A DNA stretch of 64,000 bases, from the NCBI RefSeq assembly GCF_037975245.1, contig NC_092568.1, positions 3,472,001 to 3,536,000 of the forward strand, written 5' to 3'. Position 1 is the first letter of the stretch. Each line of letters starts with the position of its first letter. Under the pieces are notes generated by a model. The model saw only the letters and a list, made by a program, of their open reading frames with translations, was not told the DNA's origin and did no database searches. This DNA is from Apostichopus japonicus (lineage: Eukaryota; Echinodermata; Holothuroidea; Aspidochirotida; Stichopodidae). Shown here piece by piece: positions 10,316 to 49,072 of this stretch. Both the position numbers and the translations under genes were made by a program.

Positions 10316-10323
10316 ATATAGGC

Positions 10324-20187: not shown

Positions 20188-22006
20188 TTATAACACGTTA
20201 AACACATACAAATTTAAAACACGTATTTCGTTTGAGTCAGTCTTCAACTTACAAAATCTGCAAACCATATTAGCTTGGCTCTGAAGTAAACGCTCAGCGT
20301 GGAGTTGACATCTTTGACTGGTCTAACATAGCGTGAACCATAGTTAGTAAGAAGGTCATCGGCTAGCCGTTTAGAGGCAACCGTTTGCAATGCACCTGAA
20401 CAAAAGAACAGCAGACAAGAAGATTCAGCTAGCTATATGCTAAATAGGAAAGCAAAGGGGAAAACAGGGTGTATTATTCGGCAAATTGTAGTTCCGTGTG
20501 CTGTGAACATTTTGACGCCAGCTATCCCCTCTTGCAATTCTGCATTTCAACACCCTCACGAAGCGTTAAAATAAGTAGACTACGCAACATTAATGATGAA
20601 AATGCTTGATACATGACCCAAATCACTCTCAGCAATCCCCCTCTTTCCGGAGTAAAGATAAATGCGGTGAAATTATGTCATGAACGGCGGTGCTGTTATA
20701 CTAATGCACTATCCATCCGAGCATATACCTCCATGGTCACGTTTGAATCATTGTTGTTAGTATACTAACTCACGAATCGAGTAACCGTCTATACTGTTCA
20801 TGTACTGTTTCTTCTTCGGAAAACACTGACCTATAATAAATTTATCAACTTCAGGTTATAATGAATAGCAACAAAAAGTGAAAATATTTTTGTCTCTTTC
20901 TGACATGGGCGGCGATCCGTACTCTTGAGTGGGGGGATATGACCTTGTTGACTATCTAAGCGTAGCGCCACCATGAGTTGGCGCGAAGCGTACAAGAAAA
21001 TTTTGGGATTTACAAACCCTCTAGATGGCCGGAAACGGCACTTCCCGAGGTTTCCAAGCGGCATATACCCAACTTTAAAATAGGGATATCATGTCCGAAA
21101 TATCTCATAATCAGGATCCAAAATACTTTCTTTTTTTTTAATTTCGGGTGTTATTTTGGGAAAATTGCCCCTGTCAATCTTGTTTCAGGCGCTACGTTAG
21201 AATGTTCGAGAGCTCTTTTATATTATTCGATGAAGAAAATGGCCTCATGCAGGCCTTTATAGGCCTATACACATGCAATACACAATTACACATAGTTACA
21301 TACCTAGGTACCGATTGCTAAGGCATCCAGGTGAAACGTGTATGAAGCATTACCCTGGTAACATGAGATTCTGAGCTGATCGAGGGAACATGTACGTGTG
21401 TAGGCCTACTATAGGGCCTATATGAATACTATGAGGGTGCATATATGTACTATATCAATACCGTGGGCGCAATAATACATTTGTTGTTATAGGGCCAATG
21501 AAGCCTACAGTCAACTATTCTTGCTTTATAAAGACGGTTTATTTGAAAAGATCGCACTGCGTTTATGGTAGGCGAGAAATGAAGCTAAAAAAAAGCCGTA
21601 CATTCACGATGATGCATAAATGTAGGCATGAAAAAATTCTTATCCCTGGCATTTGGTGGGGGGATATGGTGTATTACATCCCCTCCACCCATTTTCATGG
21701 GGGGATATATCCCCCCTTCCCCCCCCCCCCAGGATCGCCGCCCATGCTTTCTGACATGAATTGTGCAAATGTACAGTTTTAAAATAGAGCTATATCTGTA
21801 ACGCATGGGTGAGTGATTACTCTACCATAGCATTGTTTCTACAAACACATTTTAGCACAACGTTTTAGTTCAGTCAACCGTGGCTTCTTTAAAGTTAAAC
21901 GGTAAAGCAAATAACATTGGCACTTACTCACTCCACAGTGAAATCCAAACTGAACATGGAGGAACACAATCGCAACTCCCAGACACACATTCTTGAAGTT
22001 TGCCAT
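13839..22006 (-). CDS. Nicotinic acetylcholine receptor-like Cys-loop channel subunit (alpha-type, divergent)
   Basis: Seven coding exons are placed (minus strand): 22006-21928, 20395-20253, 17266-17157, 16595-16409, 15958-15601, 14817-14640, 14145-13839. All have GT/AG ends and compatible phases. They encode a signal peptide (M-A-N-F-K, then a hydrophobic core), the N-terminal helix (R-L-A-D-D-L-L) and a loop A region (L-T-W-N-P-D-D-Y-G, I-W-F-P-D-V). The 110-nt size of the loop A exon is that of vertebrate nAChR exon 4. The Cys-loop has C-x13-C containing F-P-Y-D, and loop C has adjacent cysteines (Y-L-C-C-P), an alpha-subunit mark. TM1 and TM2 follow, with G-E-K before TM2 (cation selectivity) and Leu at 9'. 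TM3 and TM4 are in the last two exons. The 45-nt exon expected between 20253 and 17266 was not securely found; 17633-17589 reads similarly but lacks matching splice sites. Loop B has Tyr where Trp is usual. With a 45-nt exon the protein is ~468 aa. It probably forms a pentameric cation channel; the ligand is uncertain. Confidence 0.88.
15975..16095. repeat. Degenerate GTC/ATC trinucleotide tract in receptor intron
   Basis: Intronic stretch built of imperfect TCGTCATC-type trinucleotides, lying within 20 bp upstream (minus strand) of the exon that encodes TM1-TM2. Frames through it give poly-Val/Ile and are not genes. Confidence 0.7.
18723..19175. mobile_element. hAT-like miniature element, family 'GGCGTAGGAA', in receptor intron
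   Basis: 453 bp flanked by AGCTTAAT on both sides (18715-18722 and 19176-19183). Termini CAAGGGCGTAGGAACC and TTCCTACGCCACTG are inverted. The interior has G9 and C12 runs and two tandem copies of a ~74-bp unit (CCCCTTTTTCATTTCCAAAT). A second copy, inverted, lies at 53115-53469. Confidence 0.92.
19972..20183. repeat. Two (TA)n tracts with duplicated flank
   Basis: A ~45-bp segment beginning TGTACTACTAAGATTTGCCA occurs twice (from about 19975 and 20094), each copy followed by a pure TA run (about 20020-20088 and 20139-20183). It looks like a tandem duplication with variable repeat length. Confidence 0.9.
20904..21746. mobile_element. hAT-like non-autonomous element, family 'CATGGGCGGCGATCC', in receptor intron 1
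   Basis: 843 bp flanked by CTTTCTGA on both sides (20896-20903 and 21747-21754). The 15-bp termini CATGGGCGGCGATCC and GGATCGCCGCCCATG are perfect inverted repeats. It contains one copy of the hairpin cassette (GCGCC...GGCGC) shared with other elements in the window. No transposase. Confidence 0.93.
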
Positions 22007-22330
22007 TTTCTTCTCGTCTACAACAGACGCATGCGTAAAAAAAAAGATGTTTTCAGACAGTTGACTTCTTTCATAGCCTACTTCCATGCAAGCGACCACG
22101 GTCTTACTGGAGAAGAAATCCAGATTTGTTGTCCTAAATTTCATATCATATTCATGGAAAGGAATGACACGGTAAACCCTCTCCTCCCTTTGAGTTAATG
22201 CATACACAATGAACTTGTAACTTCGAGAGCTATCGGGTAGCTATTTTCAATACTAAATATCAACAGAAAGTGTCATCGTGTGTTTTCGATTTCCATCAAT
22301 GTACCAGCAATTTAAATATGAGACGTAAAT
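22007..22330 (-). promoter_or_regulatory. 5' flank / probable 5' UTR of the receptor gene
   Basis: Upstream of the signal-peptide ATG the frame stays open to 22207, so an upstream ATG is possible. The ATG at 22006-22004 is preferred because it starts a typical signal peptide. The stretch is similar to 24960-25140, the decayed second copy. No clear TATA box was seen. Confidence 0.4.
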
Positions 22331-22339
22331 TAAAATCTT

Positions 22340-22560
22340 GTGTAACAGTAAGTTGGCCTGACGTTCCGATCCTAGCAGGATCTCCTTAAGAGGCTAGATG
22401 ACAAATAGCGTACAGTAACAGAAGGGACAAAAGCACGCACAGAATACAGACAGGTTAATGAGCATGGTAAACACAAAGAGATAGATGTAAGGGGATTAGT
22501 AAGAATCTTAACTTGCTTAACTTGGGGAAAGGTGCTGGGATTGTTGATAATGAGTATAGG
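22340..22560 (-). mobile_element. Penelope-like element 3' tail fragment
   Basis: Contains GGCCTGACGTTCCGATCCTA (plus strand, from 22358), matching the tail motif of the remnants at 2560-3190 and 25760-26110. The next ~150 bp resembles the adjacent tail sequence. No coding part is left. Confidence 0.55.
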
Positions 22561-22789
22561 AGTACTATTGGCCTAAATACAGAAGCATTAGCATATATAT
22601 AGATCTATATAGATATATATCAAATTTCCTATTTGTTTGTAGGTCTACATATTTCGAGAACCTATTATCAAATATGAACATATGGGGAGCTTGGTACAAT
22701 ATTATCGTTCCTACCAGTAAGAAGTAAGAAAGAATTTCGTGATTGTATATAGAGACGAGTGTTCAACGCCGGTTGGCAATCGTTTAGGC

Positions 22790-22930
22790 ACACGAACAAC
22801 GAACTACTACCCACCAGTGCCCATCAGTTTTCTGAAGCACTACCCACCAGTGCCCACCAGTACCCACCAGTACCACACCATCAGTTTTCTGAAGCACTAC
22901 CCACCAGTGCCCACCAGTACCCACCTCCCA
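22790..22930. repeat. Short tandem repeat (ACCCACCAGTGCCC units)
   Basis: Two copies of a ~63-bp block that itself contains ACCCACCAGT subrepeats, each preceded by CATCAGTTTTCTGAAGCACT. No gene. Confidence 0.85.
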
Positions 22931-23682
22931 TACAAAACATTAAAAGTTGTTATTACCACCCACCTTTCGTTTTACATAATTTATAGCCTAAATATGCCTC
23001 AAAATGCATCATTTCACGTTTACGTTTTAGACCTTACTCTCACCTCTCTCTCCACGCTCTCTCTGTCTCTGCAAAACTATGATGCGCTGAAAGTAACCCA
23101 TGTACTCTCATATCCATAGGCGTACGGGACCATTTCAGTTTGGGGGGCAGAACTTTTTGTGCCCGAAAGTTCCCGTGATACTATCTAGGCGGAGCGCCAC
23201 CATCGGTTGGCGCGTAGCGTACAAGAAAATTGTTGGCACACAATTCCTCTCAGATTGCCGGAAACGGCACTTATGAGGCCTTGCAAGTTGCATCTAAACA
23301 TTCTTTATTTCATAATCTCACGTTTTAGAAATTTACACTTCCCCAAAAATGCGGTAAATTAGAAGAAGAAAAAATGGTAACATAACTTTAAAGGGGAAAA
23401 ATGGGACAGCATATTTTTTAAGCTCCTATTTAGTTACCTTATTTATTATTTTAACACAGTACTCAGATACCTCCAGAAAAACATACATTGTTCAACGACA
23501 CGTAGGCGGGATAATGTCGCTGTGTCGGGTGAGACTGCAATTTGTCTCACAAAAAAAGTATAAAATATAACAAAGAATATGATAAACCTGTACTTCTAGG
23601 CTTGTAGGCACCCCCCACCACCATCCCTGAAAAAGAAAATGTTTCTTATATACACTCATGTTGGGGATGTCCAGGTCCAGGT

Positions 23683-24275
23683 CAAGGGCGGCGGAAGCAC
23701 TTTTATTCGGGGGGGGGGGCACCGACATCAAAGGGCACTTTGCAGAAATTCGATTGGACTGATGCAGCCTTAAATTTAGTACCCTTTATAACTCTTATTG
23801 TATTATCTTATTTGTGTATACACTTCACTCCATCAACGCCCCCCCCCCCCCTCTAGGAAAATATTCATACTATCACTGCAATATCCAATGCGCAAATTGG
23901 GAAACAAGGAACAAGTTTTCTTTTGAGACAAAATGAGGTGAAATCATGCTAGTTGCTAATGTAGGAATCTTCCGAATTAGAGTTTTTGTTTCTTGTAAAT
24001 ATCTTTACAATTATTTTCCATTCGAAATAGCTTTGAGTTTCACCCACAGAAATTCATTAAAAGTCACGGGCTTAGCCAGGAGGGAACTAGAAAATTTTTG
24101 GTTTACAAACCCCTCAGATGGCCGGAAACGGCCCTTCCCGAGTGTTCATTCTGGTTCCCTGGCCTCTTACTAACTTGAAGCACCTCAATTTTTATGTAGA
24201 AAAAAGGCACATTTCTAACCTGAGGAAAGTGGGGGTGGGGGGGGGGGCACGTGCCCCCCGGTTCCGCCGCCCTTG
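23683..24275. mobile_element. Nested hAT-like element, family 'CAAGGGCGGCGGAA'
   Basis: 593 bp flanked by GTCCAGGT on both sides (23675-23682, 24276-24283). Termini CAAGGGCGGCGGAA and TTCCGCCGCCCTTG are perfect 14-bp inverted repeats. Long G and C runs sit near both ends. A second member is at 33163-34801 and a fragment at about 41555-41616. Confidence 0.93.
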
Positions 24276-24452
24276 GTCCAGGTATACCATTGACTAGTTA
24301 GAAAAAATTGATCGTGCAAAAAGCCTGGTAGCCCAGATGAACTGCGCTTATGGTGGTGTTACACGGAAATATTCGGGCATCATGATGCTAAATAAAGAAA
24401 ATCATGGAATTGTCGTGCAAAAATTTGAAAAAGATTCGGGCAAGCTACTGCA

Positions 24453-24455
<3 letters not shown>

Positions 24456-24517
<62 letters not shown>
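24456..24517. repeat. (TA)n microsatellite
   Basis: About 60 bp of pure TA next to the left arm of the 24515-24650 inverted repeat. Confidence 0.95.
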
Positions 24518-25759: not shown

Positions 25760-26110
25760 GAATTACGTGAAAATAGACCTGAAGTGCTGTAACATCGATG
25801 TCAATGAACACAATGAAGACTGTGCATGCAACGCCTTCGCAGCTTACAACCTCATGGCCTCAACATTCAGGAAGGAAATGACTAACTCTTCTTCTGTCCA
25901 TCCCTCCATCTGCCCCCCCCCCCCCGTTTCTCCACTTCTCGTAACTCTCTTCCACCCTTTTTTACATCTATCCCTTAGTGTTCACCATGCTCATTAACCT
26001 GTCAGTATTCTGTGCGTGTTTTGTCCCTTCTGTTACTGTTACTTGTCATTCAGCCTTTGAAGAAGATCCTGCTAGGATGGAAACGTCAGGCGAACTGTTA
26101 CACATCAACA
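25760..26110 (+). mobile_element. Penelope-like element remnant: GIY-YIG C-terminus and tail
   Basis: Plus-strand frame ends C-M-Q-R-L-R-S-L-Q-P-H-G-L-N-I-Q-E-G-N-D, stop, nearly the same ending as the minus-strand remnant at 2949-3010. A C/T-rich tail follows, then GATCCTGCTAGGATGGAAAC near 26067. Only the 3' end is left. Confidence 0.65.
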
Positions 26111-26389
26111 AAATCTCAATGTAATGTTTATATGTATGACGCGACTGAGCTTAACCTTATTAGGGTCATGATGTCAGATGCACGTGACAGAAAGTGAAAG
26201 TAATATAATACATATGATACAGGAACTTAACCAAGATAAAGTGAGCCGCACATTCAGCCGCACTTTTATACAACGTTAACGGAAAGAATCTATAATGAAG
26301 TTAGCAATCACCCACTCGCGCACTGGCAACGTCAACGATATTAGTACGGTGGCCATGAAATGCCATATACACGCGTGTGCATATGTACG

Positions 26390-28470
26390 GATGGAAAATG
26401 TATTTTTCAATATGAACAAATATATGAGGGGCGGCTGGGTATAGCCTCAAAAAACATTCTTAAAACTGTTGTCACTAAGTAATACAATAATTACCTTTCA
26501 TATTATGTATTATTTGGCGTGTTACTTGCCAAGTATGAGAAACCTACGGGTTCTTGAAATATACCCACCCCCTAAAAAACGAGGTAATTTAGGAAAGTGC
26601 CATATTTTTCAATATGAAAAAATATAATAGGTGCGGCTGGGTATATAGCCTCATAGACATTTCTTCAAACTTATGTCACTAATTAATACGACAATTATCT
26701 TTCATACGATGTATTACTTGGCGTGATACCGCCACGAATGAGAGTGCTACGGATTCTTGAAATATCCCCACCCCCCTGCACTCAGAAACGAGAAAATTTA
26801 GGAAAGTGCCATATTTTTCAGTATTAAAAATATATTAGGGGCGGCTGGGTACTTAGCCTCATAGAAATTTCTTCAAACTTATGTCAAAGGTTAATAGAAT
26901 ATTTACCTTTCATATGATGTATTACTTGGCGTGATACCGCTAAGTATGAGAGTTCTACGGGCTCTGGGAATCTCCCCTCCGCACTCAAAAACGAGGAAAT
27001 TTAGGAAAGTGCCATATTTTTCAATATGAAAAAATGTATAAGTTGTGGCTGGGGCTTTAGCCTCATAGAAAATTTTTCAAACTGTTGTCACTAATTAATA
27101 GGACAATTACCTTCCATATGATGTATTATTTGGCGTGATACCGCCAAGTATGAGAGTGCTAAAGGTTCTTGAAATATCCCCACCCCCCTCAAAAACGAGG
27201 AACTTAAGAAAGTGCCATATTTTTCAATATGAAAAATTGTATTAGGTGCGGCTGGGTATATAGCCTCATAGAAATTTCTTCAAACTGTTGTCACTAATTA
27301 ATAGGACAATTACCTTTCATACGATGTATTTTTTGGCGTGATACCACCAAGTATGAGAGAGCTACGGGCTCTGGATATACCCCCTCGAAAACAATATACA
27401 CGCGTGTGCATAGATGCTGATGGAATATATATTTGTCAATATCAATGAATATATTAGGTGCGGCTGAGAATTTAGCCACATAGAGAATTCTTCAAACTGT
27501 TGTCACTAATTAATAGAGTAATTACCTTTTATACGATGTATTATTTGGCGTGATACCGCCAAGTATGAGGGAGCTAAGGGCTCTGGAGATACAACCTCAA
27601 AACGGTGGAAATTTAGGAAAGTGCCATATTTTTCAGTATTAAAAAATATAAGGTGCGGCTGGGTATTTAGCCTCATAGAAATTTCTTCAAACTTATGTCA
27701 CTAATTAATACGACAATTACCTTTCATTCGATGTAATATTTGGCGTGATACCGCCAAGTATGAAAGTTGTACGGGCTCTGGAAATCCCCCCACCCCCTCC
27801 GCATTCAAAAACGAGGAAATTTAGGAAGTGCCATATTTTTCAATATGAAAATATATAATAGGTGCGGCTGGGTATTTAGCCTCATAGAAATTTCTTCAAA
27901 CTTATGTAACTAATTAATAGAACTTATATTTGCCTTTCATATGATGCATTAATTGGCGTGATACCGCTAAGTATGAGAGTTGTACGGGCTCTGGGACCCC
28001 CCCCCCCCCCCCTCTCTGCGCACTCAAAAACGAGGAAATTTAGGAAAGTGCCATATTTTTCAATATGAAATAACTTATTAGGTGCGGCTGGGTATTTTGC
28101 TTCATGGGAATTTCTTTAAACCTATGTCACTAATTGATAAGATAATTACCTTTCATATTATGTATTATTTGGCGTGATACCGCTAAATATGAGAAAGCTA
28201 CGGGCTCTGGAAATCCCCCCCCCCCCCTCAAAAACTGAGGAAATTTAGGCAAGTGCCATATATTTCAATATTTAAAAAATATTATAAGGTGCGGCTGTGT
28301 ATTTAGCCTCATAGAAATTTCTTCAAGCTTATGTCACTAATTAATACGACAATTATCTTTCATACGATGTATTATTTGGCGTGATACCGGCAAGTATGAG
28401 AGTTGTACGGGCTCTGGAAATCCCCCCCGCCCCCCACCCTCCGCCCTCAAATACGTGGGAAATTTTCATT
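26390..28470 (+). repeat. Satellite array 1: about ten units of ~205 bp
   Basis: The landmark GCGGCTGGGT recurs at about 26431, 26633, 26841, 27045, 27248, 27460, 27655, 27864, 28084 and 28291, spacing 195-220 bp. Units also share TTTGGCGTGATACCGC, GGGCTCTGG followed by a C run, and GTGCCATATTTTTCAATATG. Units are diverged by substitutions and variable C runs. Confidence 0.95.
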
Positions 28471-29330
28471 GTAATTTTCCTGTAATCTGGGCGGCATTTT
28501 TGACAACAATTTCGTCGCTACGCTACGCGCCAACCGATGGTAGCGCTCCACTTAGATCACAGCCCCATCCCCCATGAAATCATTTTGCCCCTAAAAAATT
28601 AAGATTGGCCACGCCCCTGTCCCTGTCCCCAAGACACAAATTGCATAAATGCAGCTACATTGTTTGATTCACCAAAAGACCTCTACAGTTGTCGACTGTT
28701 GTGGGAAGGAGGTGGCAAATGTTATTATTCTCACAAAGACTACACCCAGGGGCGCTGTCCGCTATATTTCGATCGTCGACAGTCAGAAGGCTGCATAATG
28801 AATGTTAAATTTTTCTTCTGAACTAATTAGTCATGTCTGTCTGACTCTGCTGCTTATCAATCATTACTACCATTAGGGTAGTTGTTTGGAAGGTCGGAAT
28901 TTCTAAACGTTGGAGAAAGGTCAACCATGTAGGTCGACGGCAAATGTATTTCAACCGATACGCAGAGGATGTAGGTCGACGGCAAATGTATTTCAATCGA
29001 TACGCAGAGGCGGAAAGTTTCCCCGCCACCCGGAGCATGAAGGTCAAATCCGGGGTCAGAATCATACTTTATTCAGTACAAGGGAAATGTGGAAATCTCC
29101 CGCTCTACGTTCTCGGTGTGAAAAAGTTTTTATTTCACGCATGCGTATTTGTATTCTACTGTAAGACGTATTCTATACTCAGTGAAGTAAGCCAAATGTG
29201 CCGTCTAGGTCGTTAACGTTGAATGAAACGCGCAGGCCCAAAAATTCTTAGTAGTTACATATTTGTACGCACGGTTCGACCCTTCTGTTGTGCAATTAAT
29301 CCATGCTTTTGTTACACCCCGCCTTGTTTT
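28471..29330. other. Core DNA with an inverted hairpin cassette; no gene
   Basis: 28514-28558 is a reverse-orientation copy of the hairpin cassette found in several elements here. It is followed by CACGCCCCTGTCCC, resembling the end of a hAT-like element. 28919-29005 contains a ~50-bp direct duplication (TGTAGGTCGACGGCAAATGT). No supportable exon. Confidence 0.5.
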
Positions 29331-29379
29331 CTGTAATTCTATTTTCATTGGCCTTCCAAAAAATCTGGTAATTCGTTTG

Positions 29380-29790
29380 CAAAAACATTAAAACTGGACT
29401 GCCAAACTTATCTTCAAGCAAACTAAGTTTACACATGTTACCCCTCTTCTTAAAGCATTACACTGGCTTGCAATTGAAACGCGAATACATTTCAAAGTCC
29501 TTACTTTAATCCACAAATCTCCAAACTACCTTTCAGAACTTCTAATAGTGAAGCAATACAAGCGTGCCACCCGTCAGTCAAAAATTATTACCCTCCTTGA
29601 ATCTAGGACCAATGGGATTACTTATGCCAACCGTGCTTTTTCAGTTTCTGGTCCCAAATTGTGGAATTCCCTCCCAAACCATTTAAATGTATAACTAATA
29701 AATCACTTTTCAAATCATAACTAAAAACCTACCTCTATGCTAAACATTTATCAATTGGATGTGTAATTATATTTCATTGTTGCATTATTA
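29380..29790 (+). mobile_element. CR1/Jockey-like LINE C-terminal remnant
   Basis: Plus-strand frame with H-V-T-P-L-L-K-A-L-H-W-L, I-H-F-K-V-L and S-G-P-K-L-W-N-S-L-P motifs, the typical C-terminus of these reverse transcriptase ORFs. It ends after a stop near 29692 with a decayed K-T-Y-L-Y-like tail. Confidence 0.75.
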
Positions 29791-30239
29791 TTTTTGCTTT
29801 TCTTTCTATTCATATTTATATGTATGGCGCTTTTGACAACTATTTTGTTTATAATGAGCGCATTAAAAATTTTAGTTAAAATTATGTTAATAAACAAGAA
29901 GTCTTTCCTTTCTATACGGTTGCTTCCATACAATAAGTCTACAGTGAGAATTTCTGTCAGTAATATACAAAATTCTGCAAGTTCACTTCAAAGATTAATT
30001 TGTAACAGATCAAAATGCTTACAATAGATACCAAAGTATATGTTGTTCCATTCCAATGTATGCTTCCTACATCAGTGAGGTGTAACCCTGTCACTCAATG
30101 ACAGATCCCATGGCAACTTTCTGACTAACTATCAATCACTCATCCAGGTACTTATACATGACACTTTTATCCTATTTGTTTCGAGCCATTCTTTTCATCC
30201 TGTCCGCCCAGACAGAAAATCACCACACACGGACGTTTG

Positions 30240-30332
30240 GGGGAATTCCGCGAGACCGAAGGTCCGCGAGACCGAAATTAAAAAAAGGTCCTCGAGACCG
30301 AAAGTAAAGAAAGGTCCGCGAGACCGAAACTA
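30240..30332. repeat. Short tandem repeat of ~17-24 bp (CCGCGAGACCGAAA)
   Basis: Four copies of a CGAGACCGAAA core immediately upstream of the protease frame, partly inside its open reading frame extension. Confidence 0.85.
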
Positions 30333-30394
30333 TTACTAGGCCCCACGACATCGACGTAGCCATAAATTTAAAGCGGGCACATTTCGAGATTGAT

Positions 30395-30955
30395 ATGGGG
30401 GGGGGGGGGTCTCTGTTGAGATTTCTTTGGCTGGACGACATCATAATAAATGATTTCATGCACCTCATCCAACGACAAACCATTGATTCGCATACATTTG
30501 TGTGCAATTCCTTCCACACAAAATCATCTAATACAGAAGAAAGACAAGCGAGGAAGTGGTATGGAGGCCAGAAAATAATTGCATCCAAGTGGGTCCTGAT
30601 GCCAGTAAACGACGGGAACTGCCATTGGATCTTGCTTGCGGCAAACTTGGTCCAGAAGAAAATATACCTTCTAGACCCCCTTTGTGACAGAAAGGTAAAC
30701 GAAGACATGAACATCTTTCGACGCTTTATTGAAGCGAGATCAGCCTTTGAGGGGAAACCAATGATATGCAAACAGTGGCCTGTAAAGACAACATCAGATA
30801 TGAAGTTTCCCTTTCAGCCAACAATGAATGACTGTGGTTTATATATATACTGTTCTATGCAAAGTCATTGTTGTCTGGTAAAAACGTACCAGTGACAGAC
30901 ATTCGAACCATGCGTTTGTCGGTATATTATGAACTCCATGAGTTCGATATGACGA
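30395..30955 (+). pseudogene. Ulp1/SENP-like (C48) cysteine protease domain, frameshifted near its C-terminus
   Basis: Open from well upstream of the ATG at 30395 to a stop at 30893-30895. The product has the Ulp1 layout: W-L-D-D-I-I-I-N-D-F, then W-V-L-M-P-V...N-C-H-W (catalytic His), Y-L-L-D-P-L (catalytic Asp) and Q-P-T-M-N-D-C-G (oxyanion Gln and catalytic Cys). All four active-site residues are kept. After Y-I-Y-C-S-M-Q the family-like continuation (A-K-S-L-L-S-G-K to M-T-R-P, stop near 30953) is in another frame, so one indel near 30855 breaks the tail. Such domains are deSUMOylating enzymes in hosts and also occur in large DNA transposons; given the flanking satellites a transposon origin is likelier. 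The true start is uncertain because a G13 run follows the ATG. Confidence 0.75.
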
Positions 30956-31069
30956 GACCCTAAGACTAATGAGTGGCAAAATTCTTTTTCTCTCAACGAT
31001 CGTATTGTTTGTGTATCCGCGCAAATCCCGACAAATGTTAGTGTGTCTTGCAACATAGAATGTCATAAT

Positions 31070-31640
31070 ATCCTAGGAGAGCCAAATGAAGTTTCCACGA
31101 ATATAATCTGTGAAGATTTCATATGAGACCTAAATGATGATGTTGACTGTCATGATTTCGTAGGAGAGTTAAATGATGTTTCCATTCAACAATGTAAACT
31201 GTCACGATATTATAGGAGAGCTAAATGATCATGTCTCCACCCATATGGACTGTCATGATTTCATGATAGAGCTGAATATTGATGTTTCCGCCCAATTAAC
31301 TTCCATGGACACGGTGTCACAGCAGAGCTAATGATAATATGTCATAATTTCATAAGAATGGAGCTAAATGATGTTTCCATACAACAATGTAAACTGTCAT
31401 GATATTATAGGAGAGGTAAATGATGTTGTCTCCACCCATATGGACTGTCATGATTTAATGGGAGAGCTAATTGCAAGTGGTTCACCCCATATGGACTTTC
31501 ATTATTTTTAGGGGAACTAAATTAGGATGTTTTGGCTAAGATGGACTTCCAGATTTCATATGATCGCTATAACTGTTGATGTTTTGGCAAGGATGAACTG
31601 TCGTGGTTTTATAGGAGACCTAATTGCTTTTGATTGGCTC
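31070..31640 (+). repeat. Diverged minisatellite, ~55-65-bp units
   Basis: About nine imperfect units sharing GGACTGTCATGATTTCAT, then GGAGAGCTAAATGATG, then TTTCCACCCAT. Units vary in length. It lies just downstream of the protease frame inside the composite element. Confidence 0.85.
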
Positions 31641-33162
31641 CATGTCCCTTCTCCTCAACCCTAACGTAACAACAACGAAACTCCCAAAGTGGCCTTGATT
31701 GCTTGTATGTCCAGAATTGCAGTGGCGAGGAGATAATCCAGAAAACAGGAAACGGTTAGTATATATGCACATGCCCAATAAATATAATACCAAATATCAA
31801 ATTATGTGTTAAATGTAGAAAATACTCACCAAATATGCATATTTGTAACGTTTCCCTAATTGTTTTGAGGGGGTGGGGTGGAATGCAAACCATTAAAATT
31901 CACGATCGATATCACGTTAATATTTTCATTCCACAGAAGTTTGAAATTAGTGTCACCGCGCGCTCACGGCACATTTCTCAAAAGCGATCATGACCAGGGA
32001 AAATTCGATCACGATCGTTGTAATTAGTTCTTTACATAACATATGCACAAGGCATTCGCTCGATATGCGCTCAAGTTTCCTCCCTGCATTTCCATATTAA
32101 CTTAAAAATAATTCCATACAGTGGTCTCTGGCATATACCACCAAATCCCAGGTAACGTTTAAATATAGATCGCCTTTTATTGGGAAAGCGGACCGTGAAT
32201 TCCAAAGCAAACGGACTTGGGGCCGGGTGGGGCAACTGGGGTGGGAAAATGACATTCGGGGCAAATGGTTTCGTGGTTTGAAATTTGTGCTTATAAAACT
32301 TAAGGGCGTGTCCACTTCCCGTTATAATTGTTTACACTAAAAATGTTGTAATACATTTATAACCGTTGTATAGGTGTAACAAGGTTAATGCCATCACCAC
32401 TTCCGTAAAGTATCAACACATATGTCAATGATATACACGAGGGTTAACGTTCCGACACTCTTTGTTTCTTCCGACAGGAATATGGACAGTCTGTCATAGA
32501 CTGAGTTGATGGAGGGATTCATACGAGGCAACATCATTCAACGTCACGACACGGTACTTTTGACAACTTGGTTGTTGTTCATCATTTAATTGTGCAAGTA
32601 CTCTAAGAGTTTGATTCAATTGCATAATATGACTTGTTTCAATGTGTTTATTCGGTTTATTCTACTCATTCTGACAATCCACAGGTATTAGTTTTTCGGC
32701 GATAAGCGAGTAATGTTGAAAAAACCGTAGCAGTGTGGAAACAGCCAACGTTTTCGTAATTCTCGATAGTAATAATTAGAACAATTTGATAATTGTTTGC
32801 TCGCGAATTTTAGTCCCCCAAAAACCTTGACCGTACCATTAAAGGAATGATGTTCTGAAACATCTAACATAACAGTATGTCAATTTTTGTATAATTATGG
32901 TGGGTAGTGTATGCGGCAAATAGTCCCAAAATTAAGCAGCTCGTAAATAGAGATTCGTTTACTTAACGTTATAGTTTAATTTAGTGTTTATAGTTCATAA
33001 CGTTGAGATGTTAAAGCGTATCTTTTTAATTATATGGTCCATTTAACTTGTAGGTTGGTACATTGTTATAGTTTTGAACAATGTATTGTAACAATTGTTG
33101 CTTGAAGATGCTATTTCCATCGATAATATTGCTTAAGAAGTCACTAATTAGGCCTACATTAT
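31641..33162. other. Core DNA of the composite element; nothing recognised
   Basis: About 1.5 kb without repeats of note or conserved frames. A transposase would be expected somewhere in the core, but none could be read here. Confidence 0.45.
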
Positions 33163-34801
33163 CAAGGGCGGCGGAAGCACTTTTAATCTGGGGGGGGGGG
33201 GGGCACCGACGTCGAAGGGCACTTTGCAGAAATTTGATTGGACTGATGCAGCCTGATATTTAGTACCCTTTATAACTCTTATTGTATTATCCTATTTGCG
33301 TATACACATCACTCCATCATCGCCCCTCCCCCACCCTCAAGGAAAAAATGCATACTAGCACTGCAATATCCAATTTGCAAATTGGGAAACAAGGAACAAG
33401 TTTTCTTTCGAGACAAAATGAGGTGGAATCATTATAAAGTCCCTGCACACGCGATCGATAAATGCATGAAAGCAAATGAAATATGTCAAAATACGAAAGG
33501 ATGGGGTACGTTATGGGATATTAAACTATACTCATTATTCATAGTAGGCTATAAATGGCTTCTGCTTATTAAAAAGTTAAAATGTAATATAGCAATGCAA
33601 TTTTGGATATGCATTAGAATTTTTTAAAAATTGATTATGCATAATGGCACTCACCAGAATGTTAGAAGCAGTATAGCGGAGCTAGGGGTAATGATCAGGG
33701 GGTCGATAATGGTCTGTAGGGGCGTTTTTGACACTATCTAAGCGGAGCGCCGCCACAGGTTGGCGCGGAGCGTAGAGAAAATTTTTGAGTAAAGATACTC
33801 CCCAGATCGCCGGAAATGACCCTTTGCGGGCCTTGCTTATTTGCAGATAAACGAAGAATAAATAGGTGTCATCGCCATTTTGTCAGAAAATTACACCAAC
33901 AAAACGTGACAAGTTTCAATAGGTAGATGAGAGCGCAATTAAAAAGTCAATAATCGCGAATAAGTAAAAAATGGTAAAAAGCTGAAAAGGGCCCAAGCAG
34001 TACATTTTAGTCCGTCAGGGGGGCATCCGCCCCTGACTGTATGGACGCTCCGCCACTGATTACAAACCTTGTGGTAGTAAACATTGAAAACTTCCCGAAA
34101 TATTTCATTCGACGTGGGTTTCGCTTTGTAAACTCTTTAGCAATGTCCCGCTCATTGGTGCCAGTAGGTATATGTGTATTAGGCAGAGAACATTCGGAAT
34201 AGCCAGGCGAATGTCATTGTGGTCAGACAGGAGAGATACTAAAATGTTTTTGCATTCGAAATAGCTTTGAGTTTGACCCACAGAAATTCATTAATAGTTC
34301 TAAATTAGGATTAGATCTCTGAAATATCGCTGACCTAATAAGGTGATCGAGAGTACAATTTTTATGAAGAAAAAGGGCACATTTTTAACCTGAGGAAAAG
34401 TGGGGGCACGTGCCCCCTGTGCCCCCCCGGTTCCGCCGCCCTTGGTTACAATTATAGCCAGTAATTGTCTTTGATATGAATTGTAGCTAGTAAATGTTTA
34501 TCGAAAAGGCTGTTTTTGGAACTTGGAACGCCGATCGTGACAACAACAGGCAACAAAGTGCTGCAGCTCTATACATATAAAGTCTGTTAATCAACGATAG
34601 GCCCGGGCCTACAGTGCTACATACTGGCTACGCCCCTGATAGTTCTAAAATAGGATTAGATCTCTTACTGAAATATCGCTGACCTAATAAGGTGAACAAG
34701 GGTACAATTTTTATGTAGAAAAAGGGCACATTTTTAACCTGACGAAAAGTGGGGGGGGGGGGGGCACGTGCCCCCTGTGCCCCCCGGTTCCGCCGCCCTT
34801 G
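33163..34801. mobile_element. hAT-like element, family 'CAAGGGCGGCGGAA', with internal insertions
   Basis: Flanked by TACATTAT on both sides (33155-33162, 34802-34809), with CAAGGGCGGCGGAA and TTCCGCCGCCCTTG termini. The 3' end module (about 34290-34445) is duplicated at 34640-34801. An unrelated ~330-bp segment with a hairpin cassette and C/G runs (about 33740-34060) interrupts it. Compared with 23683-24275 it is about 1 kb longer because of these additions. Confidence 0.88.
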
Positions 34802-34974
34802 TACATTATAAAGAATAACAAATGCTTCTGGATGCAGTGTGCATTGATATCAAGTTCATTCATAATCCAAACAACCACACATTCTATTGTGTAGTTTTTC
34901 CTCCTCATTCGTACTAGGTCAGTTTCATTTGTCATTGAACTTTTCCTTTAATGATAACAGTTTAAATAGATTTC

Positions 34975-36640
34975 AATATATGAGGCTAAATATCCATCAG
35001 TACCTAAAACGTTAGTTTTCCATGTCATTTTAAAAATTATCTTCGTATTCGAGGAAGGGGGTAATTAGGTAGCCTAGCCCTCTAATACGTAGCAAATTTT
35101 ATATCAATAGAAAGTGCATTGTTTTTTATGTTAATGACCACAGCTTGAAGAAATTTCTATGAGGCTAAATACCCAGCCGCATCTAATATATTTGTTCACA
35201 TTGAAAAATACATTTTCCATCAGCACATTTGCACACGCATGTATATTGTTTTTGAGGGGGGAGGGTGTTCCCAGAGCCCGTAGCTCTCTGATACTTGGCG
35301 GTATCACGCCAAATAATACATCATATGAAAGGTAATTACTCTATTAATTAGTGACATAAGTTTGAAGAAATTTCTATGAGGCTATATACCCAGCCGCACC
35401 TAATATATATGTTCATATTGAAAAATACTTTTTTCCATCAGCACATTTGCACACGATTGTATATTGTTTTTGAGAGGTGGGGGGAGGGGTATTTCCAGAG
35501 CCCGTTGCTTTCTCATACTTAGCGGTATCACGCCAAATAATACATCATATGAAAGGTAAATATTGTACTAATTAGTGACATAAATTTGAAGACATTTCAA
35601 TGAGATTAAACACCCAGCCGCACCTAATGTATTTTTTTCATATTGAAAAATACATTTTCCACCAGCACATATGTATATTTTTTGAGAGGGGGGGGGGGAG
35701 GGGTATTTCCAGAGCCCGTTGCTTTCTCATACTTAGCGGTATCACGCCAAATAATACATCATATGAAAGGTAAATTTTCTATTTATTAGTGACATACGTT
35801 TGAAGAAATTTCTATGAGGCTAAATACCCAGCCGCAGCTAATATATTTTTTCATATTGAAAAATACATTTTCCATCAGCACATATGCACACGCATGTATA
35901 TTGTTTTTGAGGGGGGTATATCCAGAGCCCGTAGCTCTCTGATACTTGGCGGTATCACGCCAAATAATACATTATATGAAAGGTAATTACTCTATTAATT
36001 AGTGACATAAGTTTGAAGAAATTTCTATGAGGCTATATAACCAGCCGCACCTAATATATTTATTCATATTGAAAAATACTTTTTTCCATCAGCACATTTG
36101 CACACGATTGTATATTGTTTTTGAGAGGTGGGGGGGGGGGGGGTATTTCCAGAGCCCGTTGCTTTCTCATACTTAGCGGTATCACGCCAAATAATACATC
36201 ATATGAAAGGTAAATATTGTACTAATTAGTGACATAAGTTGGAAGACATTTCAATGAGGTTAAACACCCAGCCGCACCTAATGTATTTTTTCATATTGAA
36301 AAATACATTTTCCACCAGCACATATGTATATTTTTTGAGAGGTGGGGGGAGGGGTATTTCCAGAGCCCGTTGCTTTCTCATACTTAGCGGTATCACGCCA
36401 AATAATACATCATATGAAAGGTAATTTTTGTATCAATTAGTGACATAAGTTTGAAGAAATTTCTATGAGGCTGAATACCAAGCCGCACCTAAAACATTTT
36501 TCATATTGAAAAATATGGCACTTTCCAAAATTTCCTCTTTCTTGAGTGGAGGAGGGGGGGGGGGTATTTCCAGAGCCCGTAGCTCTATTATACTTAGCGG
36601 TATCAAGCCAAATAATACATCATGTGAAAAGGTAACACGT
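34975..36640 (-). repeat. Satellite array 2, inverted relative to array 1
   Basis: Same unit as array 1 but reverse complement, about seven full units of ~215 bp (landmark CCCAGCCGCA near 35174, 35390, 35612, 35827, 36041 and 36267). Units here share CACATTTGCACACG..TGTATATTG and G runs. The first unit is heavily decayed. Confidence 0.93.
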
Positions 36641-36819
36641 AAAATACATACAGCATAGGCTTGTTCCTATCAAAGCGTACTGGCCACGTAATCTATTATA
36701 TAAGGCCCCTATAAGCTACTGTATAATATACATGGTAAGATTAACATCTGGATACGTACTTGTTGCTCGCTTCAACGACAACAGATTCTTGAATGTGAGG
36801 CTGAATGTGCGGCTCACTT

Positions 36820-39330
36820 GATTTTAATAGGAACTTAGCCTATACAGTGTGAAGCAGAGCTATTCAAGCTAGATATACGCACTCGTTGACATTGACATTG
36901 ACAGTGTGTGGTGTGTAGGTCTATATAGTTTATTATGCCATTATTATATTACCTTAGCCTACCACGTTGGATTCGTGTGCACCATATAGACTGTAAGAGA
37001 AGAGCGATGGCGTACTTGTTTTCCACGGCGATATTTAACAAAGGTAGTTATTTTTCTGAGTCAGTATCAGGCATCTGATCATTTCAAGGTAACGAATGTG
37101 ATGAATGATTTAACTTGTATGTGTTAGTAAACTATATGATGCCATAGCCTAAGGTATATGCCAATAGAAGCCATAATTAATGAATTGGTATAATGCTTTC
37201 TATATAGAACTAATGCATAAAATTCATGTAGCTCTACAATCAGTGCAGTGCGCACTGTTTTCTCAAGAAGACCAAAAAACATTAGCAATATTGGAGACTA
37301 CGCACAGGGACGTAGCTAAGGCCATGATGATAAGGGGGGGGGGGGGGGGGTGGGTGTAGTGGCTGAAATTTCAACTGCATGGGTTTTGAAGCCAGAAAAT
37401 TCCGACTGCTGCCTTGTACCCCCCCCCCTCCCCCCCCCCCGCGCTACTCGTCAGCGATACGGTCAGTCAGAAACCCCATCTTTTGCCACTGTACTTTTGT
37501 TCCGAACTTTGGCGATACATTTGCACCCCCTGGCCCTCACTTCACAAACCTATTAATCGCAAATAAGCAACCGAGTATAAGTTATCTGTTTGAAGGCTAC
37601 ATAGACTACTAACTACAAAACCTATGTTACTGCAACAAATTATATTCGACGACATAGTGAATTACCAAAAAATAACAATCTGCCTATCATCTTCGTCAAG
37701 GACCAATATAGGTCTTAGAAATTAGTATAATTAAAAACATACTGTAAAAACATACATTTTTCAGTAGTTGCGGTTCTCACGCAGGCCTTCATATTAATTC
37801 GATATGGACAAATTCGGTGGTGATATACTCCAACCCGTATTAACTAATAAACTGATAGTTAAGTATGCTCTAAGATGAATAGACAAAGTTCGCAGATAAA
37901 ACAACTACAACCGTGACTTAAACTAGTAGTGTTTTCTTGGCAGCCATATGCATATAAAATAGCTGTAAAGCTGTAAATTTTAGTCAGTCTAACTCTGCCA
38001 ATGCGAAACCGTAGCCGGGAAATATTCCTAGGGCGGGGAGGAAATATCCCTAGGGCGGGGAGGAACATATACTAAGTATCGCCCACGTGTTACATACACC
38101 AAATTATTTACCCACTATTTTTTAAAGAAAGTGCAACCCTCGATGGTGGTAAAATCGAGAGGTTTCTCAACATTATGGATTTCTCGGCCACTGTACAATT
38201 GAGATAATCAGTTGTAACTAGTTAAACCTCGCCTAGGGCCCAATGGAAGTTGGAAAGCCGATACTTTGAAGAATATAGTTCGTACAACAAACCAGAATGC
38301 AAAATGCATTGAGGTTTCGATGACTTCAGTGCAATAGACTTCTGGTCGTTAGTACTAGCGTTTTCAATAGAAATGGCACAATTTTTTTGATACAATAACA
38401 CTACAATGGCATGACAAACACAGGCCAGTATACTGTACTTGGCTATACACACCTCCACCAAAAACAATAGGGGTATTGTTCTTAACGTTATGAATCCACA
38501 CACCAAGTGTTATAGGTATCCACGGTTCCCATCGTTAGATATCATGTAAAAGGTGTTTCAGAGTTTGACCTCTGGTGACCTCTACGGAGATTTGACCTCC
38601 AAGGCAACAGGATTCTTGTACACAATAGAGCAAATCCATATACCATGTATGAGAAGTATCCATGATTTCTACCATGAGAAATCATGTTGTGAGGGTTTTC
38701 AGGCCTCGACAAATAATTTTTTAAAGTACTCGCTATTTGGCGACCGTGACTCAAATTCTACTCGCCAAATTTCACTCGCCACTAGGCCTATAATTGCTGC
38801 TCAAGTCTCCATGGTACAGATCTTCAACATCAATACTTTAGGTAAAAAAAGATTAGGCGCTAAGGCAGATGCATGGTGGTATGTAATTGTACATTGGAAA
38901 ATTGTGTTTCAGTACAGTATGAAGTGTATTCTTTTTCCAACAAAAGGAAGTGATGAACAAAGTAAAACAGGACGCAGAATCATAAATAAGCAGCTATGCC
39001 TACTGTAGTGTCTCAAACAATTAAAATATGCTGAAACTGGTGGAAACTACTACACAAATTGAATCAACAGCCGATCCAGACAAAAGCTTGTGAACTCATT
39101 GCCAAACTAAGACCACAATTAAAAATAGAACATCTGTAAAAAATACCTACAAAGATAGCTTGGCTTCTGTTACATTAGGGCTACTCTATATCTCACTAGG
39201 CATATACTATACAGAAACTAGGTGTACGGGTATATGGTTGGCCACAGTGGACAAAATTCGGGAATTTATGCCGACATATGTTCGATTTAATGCTGACATT
39301 AATGATTCTGAGCCAATCAGGAGGCAGTTT
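36820..39330. other. Intergenic; no gene recognised
   Basis: Contains G and C runs near 37335 and 37420 (repeat-derived) and a small GGCGGGGAGGAAATAT duplication near 38030. A 151-codon frame at 38553-39008 has no recognisable domain. Nothing else supportable. Confidence 0.5.
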
Positions 39331-39368: not shown

Positions 39369-39523
39369 TTCGATTTAAAGCTAACATATATTCGATTTAA
39401 TGGTGAGATATATTCGATTTAATGGTGAGATATATTCGATATATATAAACAAAGTTGAGACACTTTCTTATCTGAAAATGTTAATTTATTTCAGAATGTT
39501 GTGATCGCAAGTCCTCAACTGCT

Positions 39524-42500
39524 ATGAAGATACCATTCTTCTTGACAATCCTTTCACATATACTGGCTCAATCAGGTAGGTATTATCTATTATCTATCCA
39601 TCTGTCCGCCGTGTGTATGTTTAGCTACAACGCGTACTAAACACCGCCGCACGTCTCGTTACTAGAACTCGGAAATATTAACACATTACCCCTACCATGA
39701 TCGAACTCCACTGGCTCCCGATACGTGAACGATTCAACTACAAACTACTTCTGATGGTGTTCAAATGTATGCACAATGTAGGACCAAGCTACCTCACCAA
39801 CTTGTTTCAGCTCCGACCATCATCCACACGCTCATTTCGCTCTAATTCATCGCTGATGTTACTCATCCCTAGAGTAAAAACACAGACTTACGGCTTGAGA
39901 ACGTTCGCATCCAGTGCACCTTGCCTCTGGAACTCACTTCCTGAACATGTTAAAATGTGCAATACTGTGAACGGATTAAAAACAGCTCTCAATACATACT
40001 TTTTCACCAAAGCATATATGTTATAATTGTTATTATTATGTTAAGCACTACAAGAATTATTTCATAGATTGTTTGGCGCTATATAAAAATTATGTATTAT
40101 TATTATTGTATTCTTTTGGCTGTCAGCATGCGAGATCTACTCTGTCAAGTTTTCATATGTGCAGTCTATAGACAATTAAACACATCGTACTTTCAAAGCT
40201 GCCGATTTGCAAATTGCTCATTAGATTCGAGTACGGTCCGAGTCAGAGAGCAGCTTGTCCAAAATTAATGGGTTCAAACTGGTCGGAGTCAAAAAGGATC
40301 GGGAGTGCAGACCTTCACGAGGTTATGTCAAAGTCTGAGCTATATGGACTTAGAAGACTGTTTACAGTCGAAAGTTAACTTTTCAGGACCATCTCTGCCC
40401 AGAACTATTCTTATGTCATATATGATATATGCTATATTCTTCAGTGAAACAAAGTGAGGCATCCTTTCCTTTTTGTTACCCATGCAGGTATAGCCTAATA
40501 ATCAGCAAGAAATAAGGCTTGAAAGTAAACCAATTAATAGCTTTTCAAAACTTTTTAAGAATTGTTTCTCATATTTTTTCAAAGGTATTATAGCTACCAC
40601 CAATGACTTCCTTAATTCATAAGCATAATTCATAATGTGAGTGTGTGTTTATGATTGCAAGTTTAAGGTAGTCATTTTATCCCATCGTAAGTGATTTGTA
40701 CGGAACGTCAGGTTACTGAGGTCAGGTGTTTTACTTGCCTACAATCGTTTCTTTACAGAAAGCAGCGTTCTTTTGTGTAACCCGCAACAATATGTACACA
40801 TTCATCAACAAGGAACGATTTACTGCAGCGTGTCTGAGCCTATATACGGCTTCTACTGGTATTTTGAAGATAACCCACAATCCATAATAACAATGTTGGA
40901 AGACAGTCAGGCCGGGCCTAGGAGTAATACATTAAAGATTGCTCGCAATGGATCTCTGATATTCAGCAACGTTTCCCTGAGTGACGAAGGACAGTTTAGA
41001 GTCGATGCTATTCTTGACGCTGGTGGCGATGTATCCGCCTACATTGATCTTGTTGTAATAGGTAAGTAATGTATACAGGCTATACTGTTATAGAGAAATA
41101 TGTCTAAGCAGATGCGAAAGTACCCCACCCAAACTTGAGTTTATAATTACCCTTTCATTGTTTCCATTTGACATGAAGTCGTTTTAAGGAATAGTCCATC
41201 TGTTTCTTAGCTTAATGCTTTGCCAAAGGACCGTCATTGCCAACTGCCAAACATTAAAGGAAGGTTTCCAAAGTTTTAATTCCGATTCGGTACTCCATAT
41301 TGATTACGTTGTAAATCATTTAGGTACTTGTGTGCTGTTGGAATATGTTTTGAAAAGAAAGTCGATGAATCCAGTTCCCTGTGTTACGTTGGAATGCGAG
41401 AGGTCTCGATAACTAATTTTTAACTAGACACAAGCCTGGGTTCGTTTTTGAGAGGAACACAGACAAAATGACGAGTTTAGAGAATTTAAATGAGAACGTA
41501 AACTATATTGAACAATGGAGTTTGAACTAACAACAACAAATGGTAATTACAAATATTCGCAAAGTGCCCTTTGATGTCGGTGCCCCCCAGATTAAAAGTG
41601 CTTCCGCCGCCCTTATATTCGTGGTTTCATTCAAATATACATGGTATGAACTTAAAACTGTCCTGATTTTAATTCGAATACATCCTCGTATTAATTCGAA
41701 TGTCAACGTATATTAAATCTTGAGATGACAAGAAGGCTTTGTAATACCATCTTAACTAATGTTAGTATTAGTTAATCCATGATCATTGAAGATTAGGAAG
41801 TCCACTTTTAATATAGGTGGAGTCAGGCCGAAGTTTGAACACAGACTTGTATAGCTGCAAGGAGCATGTTTGGATTTCAAGCGGCAAGGATGGAGGCTTT
41901 TAGGTGATAAGAAGGGTTGTCTTTGCTCTTCCTAAACAACATATTTGTAAGTGCTCATGTTGCCCTCGTTTAAATTACTTTAAAAAAATGCCCGATCAAA
42001 GACCACCCTTTTTATCACCTAAAGGTCTCCATCCTTGACGCCAGAAATCCAAACTTGCTCCTTGCAGCTATACAAATTCCGTAGTTCCAAAGTTGGTGGG
42101 GAGGTACCCCAGGGTAAAAACCGGAGCCAATGATCATAACGACAAATTGAGTGAAAATCGATATATTTGTTGCTGTTGCTATAACTCAAAGGAAAAACAT
42201 TGAATTGACAATGCACTTTCAGGTAGCATGGTAAGTCAAGTTCTACCAAGATATGTGGTTACCATGGGAGCCGAGATAAGACGTCACGTGGTTAAAGGCC
42301 AAAGGTAGTATAATGAGTGGAATTTTGTGTCCAAGACTCATCCTAAACGGCTGGGCCGATTCTCTTCACATATAGTGGGAAGGTATACTCAGTACTTGAA
42401 CCTTTTTGTCTCGCAGGCCCCAGGAACCAAAGGTCAAAGGTGATATTCAGTGAAATCGTCTTCTGAAAAAGTTGTGTTATACTAATTAACTCCAAGGGGA

Positions 42501-47609: not shown

Positions 47610-48005
47610 CTTTCGACATCATCAGAGATCTTGAGTATAAGTCACCGCTCACATCGAATGTCTCTTCTCACGTTGCAATTAATATGATTGCAATAATTAT
47701 TAGCCATTTTCTTGCCAAAATCTTAAGCAGTGTCACCATTAGTCTCCATTTGAACCATTTAATCTCACACACCACTGTTTGCACTGAATCACATGTGTTC
47801 CACTTCTATGTCGTTTGATTATCCATTACATTGTTGATGTAATGTAATGTTGTCACACTGGACCATTGTTAGGACTCCAGTATGTGTGCTATTTATAATA
47901 CACCCTATACAAAATACATATAGCAAATAATTTTTTATGAACTAATAATTTAATAACACATTTACATGACGCCCTATGAGAATTTTAACTCTTTTCATAA
48001 CACTT

Positions 48006-48600
48006 CGGTTCAGATTCTTCAAAATCGTGCAGCTAGATTATTCCTGGGGTGTGGGCTTCGGGATGTGCATGTTACATATATTTTTGCTGAATTAAAGGTG
48101 GCTAAATGTTCGTCAACGTGCATTTTATTTCAGGAATATTCTAATGTAAATATGTGTCTACGGCCTGGCTTCAGATTACCTTACTGATTCTACTATTCTA
48201 CTGAGATATAGCCATTGATACAGAACTAGATCTAGATGCTCTAATAATGTTTTACTTGCTCCTGTTAGATCTGGGAATGGTAAAAGGTCCTTAAAATTTT
48301 CTGGAGGCAGGTCGTGGAACAGTCTTTCCCCAAATTTGAAATGCTTGCCAAATGTTAATATTTTTAAACGCAATATGAAAACTTACATATTTTGTTTAGA
48401 TGTCTGATATTTGTTTGTCTATCTTTTTGCCGTCCTTTTTGTGCTTTTGGATGTTTACCGTTTTACTACTGCATAATATTGTATATTTATTTTGTATTGA
48501 AGGCTCCCTTGGAAGCAGTGCTTTTGCACTGAGCAAGACTACTCGCATTAAATATGACAATAAAAAAAGAAGGATAACAAAGGACCCTTTGTAAAAAAAA
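48006..48600 (+). mobile_element. Non-LTR retrotransposon 3' end (decayed)
   Basis: Plus-strand traces: V-Q-I-L-Q-N-R-A-A-R-L-F-L-G at the start, then G-G-R-S-W-N-S-L-S-P-N-L-K and N-I-F-K-R-N-M-K-T-Y-I-L near 48310-48400. An A-rich tail follows to about 48604. It lies exactly at the right edge of duplication copy B. Confidence 0.7.
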
Positions 48601-48604: not shown

Positions 48605-49072
48605 AGAATAAATAGCGATGGCTCTTTGGATGCATGCCCAAAGTGACCTCAATGATGAAGAAAATAAATAAAAATCAGGTAGATAATAGTTCTCTATTAA
48701 TATAGGAACTGTTCTTCTAGCTCACCCACGAGGTATTATGGGGGATGGAAGTATGTCACTTTTGCATATTTTAATGGAGCGATGTTATTTTTCATCAAAT
48801 AACTGCATGATCATGAGAAACAACCCGTAACCCTCTCATACCTTAAACAACCTTCAAAACAACTGATGAAAAACATCTGTTACTGCTATGTGCATGACCA
48901 TTGTTAAGTAGCCAAGCGATAGTACAATGTCAAGTATGCAGATAATGGTATCTATAAACTTTGTCATTTGTGTTTTCCGAAGCTAAGAATTTTCCCTTTT
49001 GTTATATATGTAATTATGTATTACCAGTATAAACGCGACAGGTTAATACAGGGTTGGGTTTGCTTTCTAGTC
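48605..49072. other. Intergenic; nothing recognised
   Basis: AT-rich spacer between the LINE remnant and the tandem-repeat element. Confidence 0.5.

Follow-up and report, generated by a model that had tools for sequence, protein, structure and literature searches.

The DNA analysed here, referred to as the window, is a stretch of 64,000 nucleotides from the genome of the sea cucumber Apostichopus japonicus (C8:3472001-3536000, C numbers denoting contigs), and it carries at 26230-36828 a single inserted DNA transposon of 10,599 bp. From the outside inwards, this element has terminal inverted repeats (TIRs), two opposed arrays of a satellite and a core with the remnant of a Ulp1-type (SUMO) protease. 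The segment is very likely an internally deleted, non-autonomous copy of a large cut-and-paste transposon of the IS256/Mutator type with a Rehavkus/Foldback-like anatomy, a longer copy of which lies on contig C21. Its features, in window positions, are as follows:

26221..26229, forward strand: left target-site duplication AGGAACTTA; this boundary also yields exact duplications in 12 further copies
26230..26259, forward strand: left TIR, 30 bp, 26/30 positions identical to the right end
26401..28428, forward strand: left satellite array, ~203-bp units, 9.8 copies
28454..30429, forward strand: 5′ core segment, 90.8% identical to C21 element positions 9742-11744
30422..30853, forward strand: transposase-gene remnant encoding the Ulp1 protease domain (95% identity with C21 protein residues 1177-1320)
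30428..30429, no strand: junction of the internal deletion, with a 2-bp overlap
30428..33166, forward strand: 3′ core segment, 95.4% identical to C21 element positions 21712-24517
33163..34801, no strand: nested insertion of later date, bounded by CAAGGGCGGCGG ends and flanked by the 8-bp duplication TACATTAT at 33155-33162 / 34802-34809
35145..36635, reverse strand: right satellite array, ~213-bp units, 6.9 copies; three units make up a recent higher-order repeat (96-97%)
36799..36828, reverse strand: right TIR, 30 bp
36829..36837, forward strand: right target-site duplication AGGAACTTA

The 21-bp sequence that a preliminary description of this DNA had placed in inverted orientation at both ends was found to be exact at 26239-26259 (+) and 36799-36819 (-), and across the 64-kb window it occurs within five mismatches at these two places only. 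Each 21-mer is followed outwards, after 9 bp, by the exact 9-bp direct repeat AGGAACTTA, which sets the ends of the element at 26230 and 36828 and gives an imperfect TIR. In a chance control, a 9-mer common to two random 30-bp stretches of the window was seen in 62 of 20,000 draws (draws less than 100 bp apart being skipped); a chance origin is less likely still given the equal offset at both ends, and the exact duplications at other copies settle that this repeat is a target duplication. The preliminary description had listed both the target duplication and a transposase as missing: the former is present in the window, while the latter is indeed absent from the window copy and is encoded in longer copies.

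The genome (671.6 Mb, 35 contigs) has the 21-mer at 54 places with up to three mismatches and its reversed pattern at none. These include 28 places that make 14 opposed pairs, 2.4-56 kb apart, the other 26 being unpaired at this threshold. The end sequences sort into four subfamilies, here named A to D. Subfamily A comprises the window copy (C8, 10.6 kb) with pairs on C15 (7.0 kb) and C21 (26.9 kb); subfamily B those on C1 (25.0 kb), C2 (26.2 kb), C3 (12.0 kb), C7 (22.9 kb), C15 (12.0 kb), C16 (20.1 kb) and C20 (24.0 kb); subfamily C those on C3 (55.9 kb) and C16 (53.2 kb), and subfamily D that on C10 (12.3 kb). The remaining pair is of 2.4 kb, on C16, and was left out of the duplication check. 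In all 13 pairs checked the target duplications are exact, 11 of them being 9 bp long and two 10 bp; the latter two showed 7-8 mismatches at the pre-set 9-bp boundary and were seen to match on reading one base further. The earlier suggestion that the unit moved as one element is thus borne out, and further loci with both ends in opposite orientation do exist. The 21-mer was not found in viral contigs, nor was the transposase protein in phages and viral contigs.

Searching with the left end and satellite together gave five loci (a lower bound), of which three are complete elements, namely the window copy and those on C15 (7,018 bp) and C21 (26,894 bp), and two are end fragments. The C17 locus is a right-end piece, and that on C16 (at 30.8 Mb) is decayed, keeping the right end together with parts of a PHD finger and a ubiquitin-protease (USP) domain. 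The core of the window copy is colinear with that of C21, element positions 2225-4200 and 4199-6937 corresponding to the two C21 segments listed above, and the 2-bp overlap marks the loss of ~9.97 kb relative to the C21-type element, the PHD, USP and transposase parts among it. As read from this alignment, the window copy is an internal-deletion derivative, predicted to be non-autonomous and ~10 kb shorter in its core than the C21 copy. A six-frame Pfam scan of it (stops read as X) gave only Ulp1 above the cut-off and no transposase, the names below threshold being DVL (0.81) and DUF6300 (0.16). The Ulp1/SENP frame reported earlier for the core is real, as 30308-30892 matches PF02902 (E 2.4e-12) and also Ulp1/SENP structures. 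It is frameshifted at a TA run near 30845, its tail running on in another frame, and the protease is therefore probably nonfunctional. As a protein query, the Ulp1 piece alone found nothing at E 0.001 among 28 candidates. An open reading frame at 29392-29691 in the 5′ core, without a Pfam match, presumably resembles the end of a long interspersed nuclear element (LINE) reverse transcriptase.

The 1.6-kb nested insertion, which we take to be hAT-like from the length of its duplication, is absent from that place in C21 and partly common to the 7.0-kb C15 copy, which has an even smaller core than the window copy. Both would thus probably descend from an ancestor already carrying the insertion and have moved afterwards. 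A random 200-kb sample of the genome matched the element only in this insertion and in a short dispersed repeat (28476-28557).

The C21 copy has a 1,355-amino acid open frame, P0001 (L056:411-4475:-), with a USP/UCH domain at residues 7-283 (E 2.3e-25) and a Ulp1 domain at 1178-1334 (E 4.4e-14), and a PHD finger (PF00628, E 7.8e-9) in another frame upstream of it. PHD and USP abut in the C16 relic and share one frame in protein P0003 of Holothuria leucospilota. When P0001 was compared with the genome (34 of 165 candidates scored), matches lay inside 11 of the 14 pairs, with USP, transposase and Ulp1 all spanned in eight. Frames of 1,523-1,622 amino acids without stops are present in the 55.9-kb C3, 53.2-kb C16, C20 and C1 copies (that of C1 as two pieces), while a single stop interrupts each of those of C2 and C7 (for C7, from residue 107 onward) and that of the 20.1-kb C16 copy is split and also holds a stop. 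In the window copy and the 12.0-kb C15 pair the similarity to P0001 is confined to Ulp1 and in C10 to decayed pieces, and for the 12.0-kb C3, 7.0-kb C15 and 2.4-kb pairs there was none among the matches listed. A possible origin of the window's Ulp1 as a fragment of a host SENP gene is rejected, this domain being the 3′ end of the transposase frame in full copies.

The transposase that the preliminary description proposed to look for in longer copies is thus found, as a DDE transposase, for example in the C21 protein. Its catalytic D, D and E are present in all 14 aligned rows, and the intervening CxxH, a signature of MULE (Mutator-like element), hAT and P transposases, has its Cys in 12 of them and Gly in the two USP-first holothurian proteins. 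An AlphaFold model of the transposase built from three sequences reached a pLDDT of 40; in that built from 14, second-look structural alignment against the folds on the VIA list placed it nearest to ISCth4 (IS256 family), and a WRKY-like finger is apparent. With this ISCth4-like fold and finger the modelled transposase is of the IS256/Mutator type.

The two opposed arrays of one satellite stand as first described. Among the 302 inverted pairs in the window, the 25 longest are 80-90% complementary. In an alignment of 79 units from three copies, anchor counts (left/right) were 9/7 for the window, 10/13 for C15 and 37/10 for C21, and unit identity was 0.81-0.82 within arrays versus 0.76 between arrays, with left unit 4 of the window closest to a right-array unit (90%). 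This higher identity within arrays, the three-unit repeat and the kinship of left unit 4 together fit local unequal exchange with some exchange between the arms. The left end and satellite gave at least 93 matches, at the five loci on C8 (window), C15, C21, C17 and C16, all of which are elements or element fragments, so that it was not found away from the element in that genome search (a lower bound), nor in the random 200-kb sample; satellites standing mostly alone, which would have spoken against the preliminary description, were not encountered.

The motif said to be common to the terminal sequence and the satellite unit can be given as the 8-mer AGCCGCAC/GTGCGGCT, which occurs 15 times in the element, is absent from the window's other 53.4 kb and has a single occurrence in the 200-kb sample. 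In each end it is oriented opposite to the array of the same side. Within the satellite unit, GTGCGGCT has a mean conservation of 0.953 versus 0.876 overall, and a binding role for AGCCGCAC is plausible from its distribution; one protein may bind both ends and satellites, as the preliminary description suggested.

Protein searches gave 14 proteins. One of these, P0002, represents the C21 protein itself, with a gene model that starts after most of the USP domain. P0003 of H. leucospilota has the order PHD-USP-transposase, while P0004 of the mussel Mytilus coruscus and P0009 have transposase-USP-Ulp1. In P0006-P0008 the transposase is followed by a USP domain that the end of the protein truncates, P0005, P0012 and P0013 have no Pfam protease, and the rotifer proteins P0010, P0011, P0014 and P0015 have USP ahead of the transposase. 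The PHD finger (PF00628) of the Holothuria protein (E 4.6e-6) shares one frame with both USP and transposase; in those of mussel and rotifers none was detected. The sea cucumber also has a second family, with 31% identity over the transposase, whose loci on C14, C3, C22, C8 and C4 have frames of 1,340-1,509 amino acids, and the one copy read, that on C14 (L057, C14:1014001-1019500, P0016), has PHD (E 1e-5)-transposase-USP-Ulp1. Its copies at the five loci have near-equal match scores and long open frames; the family is possibly recently active.

USP therefore lies before or after the transposase by lineage, both orders occurring within the A. japonicus genome, and Ulp1 is C-terminal wherever found. 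The USP-transposase fusion is present in three animal phyla (echinoderm, mollusc and rotifers), and both proteases are present in sea cucumber, mussel and P0009. A transposase tree sets the rotifers apart, with a long-branch warning and deep forks that are unsure. On a more speculative reading, taken up below, the two positions of USP would suggest repeated capture, and that removal of ubiquitin, and in some lineages of SUMO, is part of transposition or of escape from silencing. It should also be mentioned that P0002, P0003, P0004, P0010 and P0011 bear database names such as "uncharacterized", "unnamed" or "Ubiquitin carboxyl-terminal hydrolase 36" (cut short for P0010), likely a misannotation.

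Among known transposons, the closest in printed description is Rehavkus, which combines duplications of 9 bp with a PHD finger and with a minisatellite ahead of its 3′ TIR, is reported from arthropods and annelids, and is known from elements described in Repbase only (PMC6446971). It is placed in or beside the Mutator superfamily, and the beetle element Rehavkus-1_TC (9.5 kb) has a 164-bp satellite in its inverted termini (PMC10218199). The sea cucumber element shares with Rehavkus the 9-bp duplication (11/13; 10 bp in 2/13), the PHD finger and, in subfamily A, a satellite beside the TIR, a likeness of descriptions rather than of compared transposase sequences. It differs in its echinoderm host and in its proteases, neither USP nor Ulp1 being mentioned for Rehavkus in the passages available. 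MULEs in general have target-site duplications of 8-11 bp (PMC6446971), a range that holds all 13 here, and the DDE residues with CxxH and the IS256/MULE-type fold agree with them also. The inverted termini made of tandem repeats are a feature shared with Foldback elements. The Foldback-type elements Tetris and Tm1, and Phantom MULEs, have composite, repeat-built inverted termini and similar duplication lengths (8-10 bp in Tetris, mostly 9 bp in Tm1), and Tetris repeats have seeded a satellite DNA (PMC4079207, PMC3169594). However, the copies of Tetris described lack coding capacity, the sea cucumber pairs span 2.4-56 kb, and Phantom-type proteins have a FLYWCH finger with the MULE domain and, in the passages available, no USP.

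Ulp1 is carried by Mutator elements of hydra, lancelet and plants, and an alignment of Ginger1/Mutator Ulp1 and PHD domains has been printed (PMC2836005), though no USP is reported for these or for KAONASHI/KI-MULEs in the passages available; in KI-MULEs the protease domain is reverse-oriented to the transposase gene (PMC2528002). In Trichomonas vaginalis a ubiquitin hydrolase is fused to a DNA transposase (transposase_11-Peptidase C19; PMC2836005), which is of a different family, and Ulp1 is not mentioned there. No description of a transposase with both USP and Ulp1 was found in literature listings and the starts of abstracts, Repbase, which may hold one, lying outside this search; the double-protease fusion was thus found undescribed in the literature covered.

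The preliminary description had proposed a possible new transposon type and compared it with Zisupton/KDZ. Neither proposal is upheld, as an IS256-like fold, a PHD finger and target duplications of 9-10 bp all indicate a Mutator/Rehavkus/Foldback-like element. KDZ/Zisupton duplications are of 8 bp, against 9-10 bp in all 13 pairs checked here. Ulp1 is also known from Ginger1 and other transposons, and Ginger duplications are of 4 bp (5 bp in TDD-4/5; PMC2836005). With these lengths and the modelled fold nearest to ISCth4, membership in any of these Ulp1-bearing superfamilies is highly improbable. A satellite locus in which inverted arrays happen to surround a host SENP-like fragment, with no transposon involved, would account for the broken Ulp1 frame and the lack of a recognisable transposase in the window copy. 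It is refuted in practice, and given almost no weight, by the other copies with their opposed ends and exact duplications, by satellite matches at element loci only (as a lower bound) and by the position of Ulp1 inside the transposase frame of full copies.

More serious, though still unlikely, is a new superfamily that is superficially MULE-like, in which a separate DDE lineage would have reached the duplication length and satellites by convergence. It could draw on the WDATG and SD blocks, which are invariant across the 14 rows, and on some of the points that weigh against an IS256/Mutator-type assignment and the anatomy and function built upon it. No Pfam transposase model reaches E 1 on P0001, although such models may miss divergent animal MULEs; the best Foldseek match, at 6.3e-3, falls short of E 0.001, and the 14-sequence model is of medium confidence (pLDDT 71.7). 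The assignment consequently rests on the catalytic residues, the second-look alignment and the duplication length. The C21 gene is itself cut, PHD being parted from USP by a nested insert with a 15-bp duplication (presumably Penelope-like, from a GIY-YIG-like frame). The satellite evidence covers subfamily A copies alone, and 48 of the 198 eight-base windows of the 205-base consensus are better conserved than the shared motif, so that the motif, taken as a DNA-binding site, does not turn out to be what the unit conserves best. Ulp1 was undetected in six rotifer proteins and Holothuria P0003 and is hence not needed in every lineage, and the activity of the transposon and the roles of USP and Ulp1 are predictions from sequence.

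With its duplication length, PHD finger and satellite-bearing inverted termini all matching printed Rehavkus, the element is best read as a giant Rehavkus/Foldback-like transposon and not as a new class. We give even chances to the further proposal that it represents an undescribed animal lineage with a full form of 20-56 kb, in which one protein, often including a PHD finger, unites an IS256/Mutator-type transposase with a ubiquitin protease, a SUMO protease being added among echinoderms and molluscs, and in which satellites are born and kept inside the element; this estimate was lowered by the lack of a detectable Ulp1 in the rotifer proteins.

As for the mechanism, the transposase would bind the AGCCGCAC motifs of the ends, and perhaps also those of the arrays, with its WRKY-like zinc finger, pair the ends, cut with its DDE site and join them 9-10 bp apart, copies of the window type being moved in trans. 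USP and Ulp1 probably strip ubiquitin and SUMO from the transposase or from chromatin or repair proteins at donor or target, which may keep the transposase stable or counter SUMO-linked silencing, while the PHD finger may serve as a reader of histone tails. Unequal exchange, together with exchange between the arms, would make the arrays grow and shrink. The SUMO-protease part cannot be general, as Ulp1 was undetected in the rotifer relatives.

Elsewhere in the window, 3727-9709 and 39446-48008 form a tandem duplication (long matches 88-96% identical), presumably of an Ig-domain-like gene type, with the transposon between the copies. Just outside the left end of the element, 25962-26104 and 22339-22490 are related repeat pieces in inverted orientation, which we take to resemble a Penelope-like 3′ end. 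Another small foldback-like structure, at 49072-50010, consists of a 22-bp repeat (CATTTCGCCCAACCAGCATGGT type) in two opposed arrays ~600 bp apart; the 90-bp stretches compared on its two sides have no direct repeat of at least 7 bp in common. Microsatellites with 100% matches are AAT (119 copies, 451-807) and CATC (204 copies, 55995-56810).

The element bears on the origin of satellite DNA, its arrays being found only inside a transposon family, and on the cargo of large, low-copy DNA transposons. With USP fused to the transposase in three animal phyla and in two domain orders, it also bears on how transposons handle ubiquitin and SUMO control. Given database labels such as "ubiquitin carboxyl-terminal hydrolase 36", counts of deubiquitinase genes in these animals may include transposases.

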